This document shows, in pieces, positions 16,885 through 63,940 of a DNA stretch of 64,000 nt. The notes below the pieces were generated by a model, which searched no databases, was not told where the DNA came from, and saw only the letters and a list, made by a program, of their open reading frames with translations. This stretch comes from SAR324 cluster bacterium (GTDB lineage: Bacteria; SAR324; NAC60-12): positions 1-64,000 of the forward strand of contig JACNJW010000030.1 of NCBI GenBank assembly GCA_014382365.1, read 5' to 3'. The translations under genes were made by a program, and so were the position numbers. Each line of letters opens with the position of its first letter. Positions within the stretch are counted from its first letter, which is position 1.

Positions 16885-17349
16885 ATGATTGCAGTTGGTT
16901 CAGAGGCTCCTGACTTCAAATTGGCCAGCCAGTTTGATACGGAGTTTTCCTTGAGCGAATTCAAGGGGACAAAAAATGTAATGTTGGTGTTTTATCCACT
17001 CGATTGGACACCTACCTGAAGCAAAGAAATACCCGGCATTGAATCGATGATTGATCAGTTCAAAGCCGCAGACACTCAAGTATTGGGTGTGAGCATAGAC
17101 AGTAAATATTCACATGACAACTGGGCAAATTCTCTGGGTGGTGTTTCCTATCCGCTGCTGCAGGATTTCCATCCAAAAGGAGCTATGGCTCAAGCTTATG
17201 GAGCTTATCTGGATGAAGCCGGAATCACTGATCGTGCGACGGTAATCGTAGACAAGCAGGGAGTGGTTCAATACTCTGTTGGAGTTGGACCAGGTGGTGA
17301 GCGTGATATTGCAGAACTCTTAGCTGAATGCCAGAAGGTAAACGGTTAA
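16885..17349 (+). CDS. prxU: Selenocysteine-containing peroxiredoxin (PrxU-like, in-frame TGA)
   Basis: The gene starts at ATG 16885 behind a strong ribosome site (GGAGG) and runs to 17349, with a single in-frame TGA at 17017-17019. Reading TGA as selenocysteine gives 154 residues: a full AhpC/TSA thioredoxin fold with YPLDWTPTU. The P-x3-T-x2-C peroxidatic motif is intact except that residue 45 is Sec instead of Cys. A conserved arginine follows in TDRATVIVD. The only cysteine is Cys149 near the C-terminus. A hairpin suited to a bacterial SECIS lies 15-50 bases past the TGA. Homologous frame continues on both sides, so a pseudogene is unlikely. It reduces peroxides, probably with a thioredoxin- or glutaredoxin-type donor. 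Confidence 0.93.
17034..17068 (+). promoter_or_regulatory. Candidate bacterial SECIS hairpin
   Basis: CGGC-A-TTGAA-TCGAT (17034-17048) can pair with ATCAG-TTCAA-A-GCCG (17054-17068) with an A-A mismatch, one U-G pair and one C-A mismatch. The apical loop is GATTG (17049-17053), with G at its first position. The loop starts 30 bases after the TGA. Stem, loop guanine and distance agree with the general model of bacterial SECIS elements read by SelB. The pairing was made by eye. Confidence 0.7.
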
Positions 17350-17377: not shown

Positions 17378-17410
17378 AGGCGGTCCTTTTTTGGGGGCCG
17401 CCTTTTTTTT
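17378..17410 (+). terminator. Rho-independent terminator after the peroxiredoxin gene
   Basis: AGGCGGTCC (17378-17386) pairs with GGGCCGCCT (17395-17403), nine pairs with one G-U, across an eight-base loop, followed by a run of eight T. It lies 28 bases past the peroxiredoxin stop and separates it from the glutaredoxin-like gene. Confidence 0.9.
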
Positions 17411-17435: not shown

Positions 17436-17669
17436 ATGGTTCTTTATTTTTACGAAGACTGTGAGTATTCACAGATTGTGCTGAACACGATTGCCAATCT
17501 GAAAATAAAGGATAAATTTACTTTTAAGGATATCCGCCTGAATCCGGACTATGCCAGGGAACTGGCAGATTTGACTGGAAATGACATTGTTCCCTGTCTG
17601 GTGACAACAGAGGGGCCAATGAAAGAAGCAAAGGATATTCGTAAATATCTCGTTTCAAACTTTATGTAA
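17436..17669 (+). CDS. Glutaredoxin-like protein
   Basis: This is a 77-residue protein with a glutaredoxin/thioredoxin-like layout: a beta strand (VLYFY), an active-site-like DCEYS at residues 8-12 (single cysteine, CxxS type), a helix, and a cis-proline-type loop IVPCLVTT. The second cysteine precedes the LVTT strand. Length and pattern fit the smallest glutaredoxin-like proteins. It starts just after the peroxiredoxin terminator, so it may be expressed by read-through or from its own promoter. A role as electron donor to the selenoprotein peroxiredoxin is attractive but unproven. Confidence 0.7.
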   Translation: MVLYFYEDCEYSQIVLNTIANLKIKDKFTFKDIRLNPDYARELADLTGNDIVPCLVTTEGPMKEAKDIRKYLVSNFM

Positions 17670-63712: not shown

Positions 63713-63721
63713 GAAGTAACT

Positions 63722-63808
63722 TCGTTAGGGGTGGGGGTTCCCGTAAATGGAACCACCTGAGAAAGTCCCTTGGAACCTGATCCAGATCATGCTGGCGCAG
63801 GAAAACGA
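63722..63808 (+). promoter_or_regulatory. TPP riboswitch (thi-box)
   Basis: The closing stem pairs TCGTT (63722-63726) with AACGA (63804-63808). Consensus elements are GGGGTG early, CTGAGA at 63757-63762 and ACCTGATC at 63775-63782, then CTGGCGCAGGA. This matches the thiamine pyrophosphate aptamer well. It lies 132 bases ahead of an exported protein gene. The expression platform (terminator or ribosome-site hairpin) was not resolved by eye. Confidence 0.93.
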
Positions 63809-63940
63809 TGCTGCTTCATTGCCGTTTCTGCAATCATCTTTCCAACACACCACCGTTCTCAACCCTCCGAATCATGTTTTGAGTGAGTGTCAGGAATGTC
63901 CTGCAACTTGCCGTAAATCATTATTATTCCGGAGATTGTC

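Follow-up and report, generated by a model that had tools for sequence, protein, structure and literature searches.

A gene at positions 16885-17349 of the SAR324 cluster bacterium contig JACNJW010000030.1 (assembly GCA_014382365.1) is interrupted by an in-frame TGA at the position of the peroxidatic residue. Taken as one explanation, it is very probable that the product is an AhpE-like peroxiredoxin with selenocysteine, in which Sec45 would react with the peroxide and a separate thiol would recycle the oxidised enzyme. The gene was found in the window, which here means the whole stretch of 64,000 nucleotides that was analysed (positions 1 to 64,000 of the contig). The two features on which the reading depends are:

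16885..17349, + strand: selenoprotein gene, AhpE-like peroxiredoxin of 154 residues with Sec45 (from frame, homology, conservation and fold)
17017..17019, + strand: UGA of codon 45, at the peroxidatic position, decoded as selenocysteine (every close homolog has TGA)

An in-frame TGA at the catalytic position

Translation of the window gives a coding frame of 154 residues from 16885 to 17346, followed by a TAA at 17347-17349. Its sole in-frame stop is the TGA at 17017-17019, and the residues around this codon read FYPLDWTPT-U-SKEIP, with PLDWTPTU as the peroxiredoxin motif. The original prediction, which placed the only stop exactly where P-x3-T-x2-C has its peroxidatic cysteine and saw a homologous frame on both sides, is thereby borne out: the Pfam AhpC-TSA match (PF00578) runs across the TGA from residue 4 to residue 130 with an E-value of 1.1e-36. 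The UGA is also conserved where relatives have a redox cysteine, which is one criterion applied to bacterial selenoproteins. Judged by eye, none of the other TGA read-through frames of the window looked convincing.

The genome is equipped for selenocysteine insertion. The genes selA, selB, selC and selD, to which the original prediction had pointed, are all present above curated cut-offs: SelA scores 506 against a cut-off of 268, SelB 394 against 242 and SelD 356 against 125, while a tRNA-Sec with the anticodon UCA reaches 55.6 bits (cut-off 47). On genome content and conservation, the UGA at codon 45 would almost certainly be decoded as selenocysteine by SelB and tRNA-Sec under the guidance of a hairpin. 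The selD gene is encoded on this contig too, some 11 kb past the end of the window (L018, G000:C41:74670-75593, - strand); as its frame has an in-frame TGA of its own, SelD is probably a selenoprotein itself.

A reassignment of TGA throughout the genome, to tryptophan, glycine or some other ordinary amino acid, would also account for an in-frame TGA within a conserved gene. It is extremely improbable, as 21 of the 42 large ORFs of the window end in TGA, and this use of the codon as a stop already contradicts it; the tRNA-Sec with its UCA anticodon speaks against it as well.

Conservation across relatives

Among 52 genomes of the class, 17 from six genera (the source genome included) contain a close homolog, defined as a match at E <= 1e-25. 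The TGA is found at the codon-45 site in every one of these 17 genomes, with exactly one TGA per match, and a cysteine form at this site occurs in none of them. The other close homologs are 60-88% identical to the source gene. In a collection of named genomes, eight of nine loci are likewise close homologs, labelled as SAR324 cluster (5), Deltaproteobacteria (2) and Syntrophobacter (1); as these are mostly the same genes as in the class-genome set, they are not independent evidence but reveal the lineage. For the portion after the TGA, dS was defined in five pairs, and their dN/dS of 0.07 to 0.19 indicates that this portion is under purifying selection.

These observations bear on two other readings of the frame. 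If the gene were a pseudogene or the product of a sequencing error, the TGA would be a nonsense mutation or a miscalled cysteine codon. Nothing but the TGA itself speaks for this; six genera, with 17 genomes, share an identical TGA, so that a sequencing error is excluded, and the purifying selection 3' of the TGA together with the full selenocysteine machinery leaves this reading with a negligible probability. The downstream part could instead be a separate protein of 100 residues starting at ATG 17047, as an ORF does exist at 17047-17349. This is very improbable too: such a product would be without the peroxidatic residue, the residues ahead of ATG 17047 are also conserved (U-S/T-K/R/Q-E-I/M/V-P), and all close homologs have the same TGA layout. 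Both readings were rejected.

More distant peroxiredoxin-like matches among relatives in the order and class were also seen. Many of those in the order have one TGA as well, which, judged from the sequences, suggests a large selenoproteome in the lineage.

The SECIS-type hairpin

Downstream of the UGA, the original prediction had noticed a hairpin with an apical G in the place expected for a bacterial SECIS element, and this hairpin was recovered:

17034..17068, + strand: bacterial SECIS-type hairpin with the apical loop GAUUG at 17049-17053 (from predicted fold and a synonymous-recoding test)

The bacterial SECIS model requires a spacing of 16-37 nt, a loop of 3-9 nt, a G within the first two loop positions and a minimum free energy of at most -7.5 (PMC13188914). 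The hairpin at 17034-17068 falls within these limits, with its GAUUG loop starting at 17049, 29 nt past the UGA, and a predicted energy of -14.3 kcal/mol, where an upper stem of at least 4 bp is obtained only when a 1x1 mismatch is allowed after the first 3 pairs. Recognition of such elements varies between species. None of 200 dinucleotide shuffles was equally stable (z about -3.4), and when the peptide was recoded synonymously 5000 times, 0.4% of the recodings attained the energy.

When an automatic SECIS test that tolerated stem mismatches was applied to the homologs, nine of the 17 showed a qualifying hairpin, compared to 2.4 expected from synonymous recoding, and in all nine the loop was 28-29 nt from the UGA. 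The summed hairpin energy of the homologs also went beyond all 100 of 100 null sets. The remaining eight homologs, which include most of the distant ones, failed the automatic test. RNAalifold found no consensus structure over 16 aligned hairpin regions, and covariation in these regions, assessed by pair counting, was not clearly above shuffles; the synonymous-recoding test is more informative than either. As the distant homologs mostly fail and neither a consensus nor clear covariation emerges, the hairpin is well supported among close relatives and weakly across the family. An Rfam scan of the window returned nothing but a TPP riboswitch, which scores above the Rfam gathering threshold at 63717-63820 (+ strand).

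Relationship to AhpE and PrxU

Among solved structures, the closest by sequence is Mycobacterium tuberculosis AhpE (1.3e-29), and a fold search with a modest predicted model (mean pLDDT 67.5) again gave this protein as the best match. On sequence and predicted fold, the protein therefore appears AhpE-like and not PrxU-like. It shares its length and catalytic position with M. tuberculosis AhpE (1xxu, 1xvw, 4x0x), but AhpE has cysteine where the SAR324 protein has selenocysteine, and the partner of AhpE is mycothiol/mycoredoxin. The original prediction of a selenocysteine peroxiredoxin is supported, with the refinement that AhpE is nearer than PrxU, with which an alignment had been proposed. PrxU of Eubacterium acidaminophilum (Soehling et al. 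2001, as reported in PMC8533274) is also a selenocysteine-containing peroxiredoxin; however, the PrxU model NF040737 (peroxi_PrxU) comprises 233 positions compared to 154 residues here, and the score of 85.7 bits lies far below its cut-off of 270.

In phage records, a search for homologs of the selenocysteine peroxiredoxin gave distant matches only. One of them, in Microcystis phage MaAM05 (MW495066.1, 40544-40999), is annotated as prxU and as selenocysteine-containing, and is 31.6% identical; this record could be a contamination.

Peroxiredoxins in which a TxxU motif carries selenocysteine were already known in 2001, and marine metagenomes contain them in abundance: 43 genes were reported from the Sargasso Sea (PMC1088965) and 253 from GOS (PMC2398784). 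The original prediction had named some anaerobes and marine bacteria as having them. A 2026 review (PMC13188914) lists the family among the established ones for selenoproteins. In 78 sequenced organisms, 91 such genes were counted. The marine "Prx" family resembles the SAR324 gene in belonging to PF00578, in having selenocysteine at the peroxidatic position of PxxxTxxU and in being common in marine samples, but the accessible portions of PMC1088965 and PMC2398784 do not sort AhpE from other types. The SAR324 gene may well be among those marine genes, to which it is likened by family description. It is an added member of the established family, distinguished at most as a variant of AhpE type whose glutaredoxin neighbour is conserved. 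In a partial coverage of the literature, no title or abstract describing a selenocysteine AhpE was found, nor any description of a glutaredoxin neighbour of a selenocysteine peroxiredoxin, and these two traits may be new details of the family.

Proposed recycling of the oxidised enzyme

The features that bear on the recycling step are the following:

17436..17669, + strand: glutaredoxin-like protein of 77 aa with a CxxS motif, proposed reductant (gene pair in many relatives)
17378..17403, + strand: intrinsic-terminator-like hairpin with a T run between the peroxiredoxin and the glutaredoxin-like gene (prediction only)
17329..17331, + strand: codon for Cys149, the sole cysteine and a possible resolving residue (kept in 16 of 17 homologs)

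By the established peroxiredoxin mechanism, the Sec45 selenolate would reduce the peroxide and be converted to a selenenic acid, and the oxidised enzyme would most likely be recycled by a separate thiol protein. The best candidate for this partner is the adjacent ORF at 17436-17669, which begins 86 nt past the peroxiredoxin stop and encodes a monothiol glutaredoxin-like protein with a CEYS motif. It could act like mycoredoxin-1, which reduces M. tuberculosis AhpE directly or through a mixed disulfide (PMC4360819).

Counting duplicates once, a glutaredoxin-like gene lies directly 3' of the peroxiredoxin in 13 of 19 loci, including one (L038) in which the peroxiredoxin match covers the first 84 residues only. 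Measured from the last peroxiredoxin codon, the distance to the start of the homolog is 18-23 nt for five genomes that belong to other genera (G018, G020 and G026 from the family, G045 and G047 from elsewhere in the class), 88-93 nt for six from the genus itself, and 53 and 154 nt for another two. Gene neighbourhood and the analogy with mycoredoxin-1 give about an even chance that this protein recycles the oxidised peroxiredoxin. Against it stand the six loci in which no glutaredoxin homolog adjoins the peroxiredoxin and the terminator-like hairpin that separates the two genes in the source genome, although the number of such hairpins found was not above shuffles. No canonical glutathione synthetase scored above the cut-off in the genome, which also counts against a glutaredoxin partner; a GCS2-type ligase is present, and BshC (bacillithiol) was not found. 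Two genera have a further glutaredoxin-like gene, whose motif is CPFC, upstream of the selenocysteine peroxiredoxin (L027 515-736, L033 876-1097).

The conserved Cys149 offers an alternative resolving thiol. It is the only cysteine of the protein, as had been stated at the outset, and its retention by 16 of the 17 members makes a resolving role possible: Sec45 would form a selenenyl-sulfide with Cys149 within or between subunits, to be reduced by thioredoxin as in 2-Cys peroxiredoxins. The cysteine occupies one alignment column in these homologs despite an otherwise variable C-terminus, but it is missing in one homolog (L035), the modest model places it within the final helix (142-153), and the nearest relative with a solved structure is a 1-Cys enzyme by description. 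Resolution by Cys149 is rather unlikely. The external thiol that had been proposed is plausible, even likely, given the glutaredoxin-like neighbour, with the conserved Cys149 as a possible competitor. For external recycling, a broader reading can be offered tentatively, at somewhat less than even chances: a SAR324-wide AhpE-type branch in which selenocysteine is fixed, no cysteine form having been seen, and which forms a dedicated pair with the adjacent CxxS glutaredoxin-like reductase.

Significance

Automatic annotation that treats TGA as a stop only would yield either a fragment of 44 residues or a protein of 100 residues that lacks the catalytic one. Reading through it adds a clear selenoprotein for an abundant uncultured marine lineage, and, owing to the conserved glutaredoxin-like neighbour, it can be tested directly what reduces a selenocysteine peroxiredoxin.
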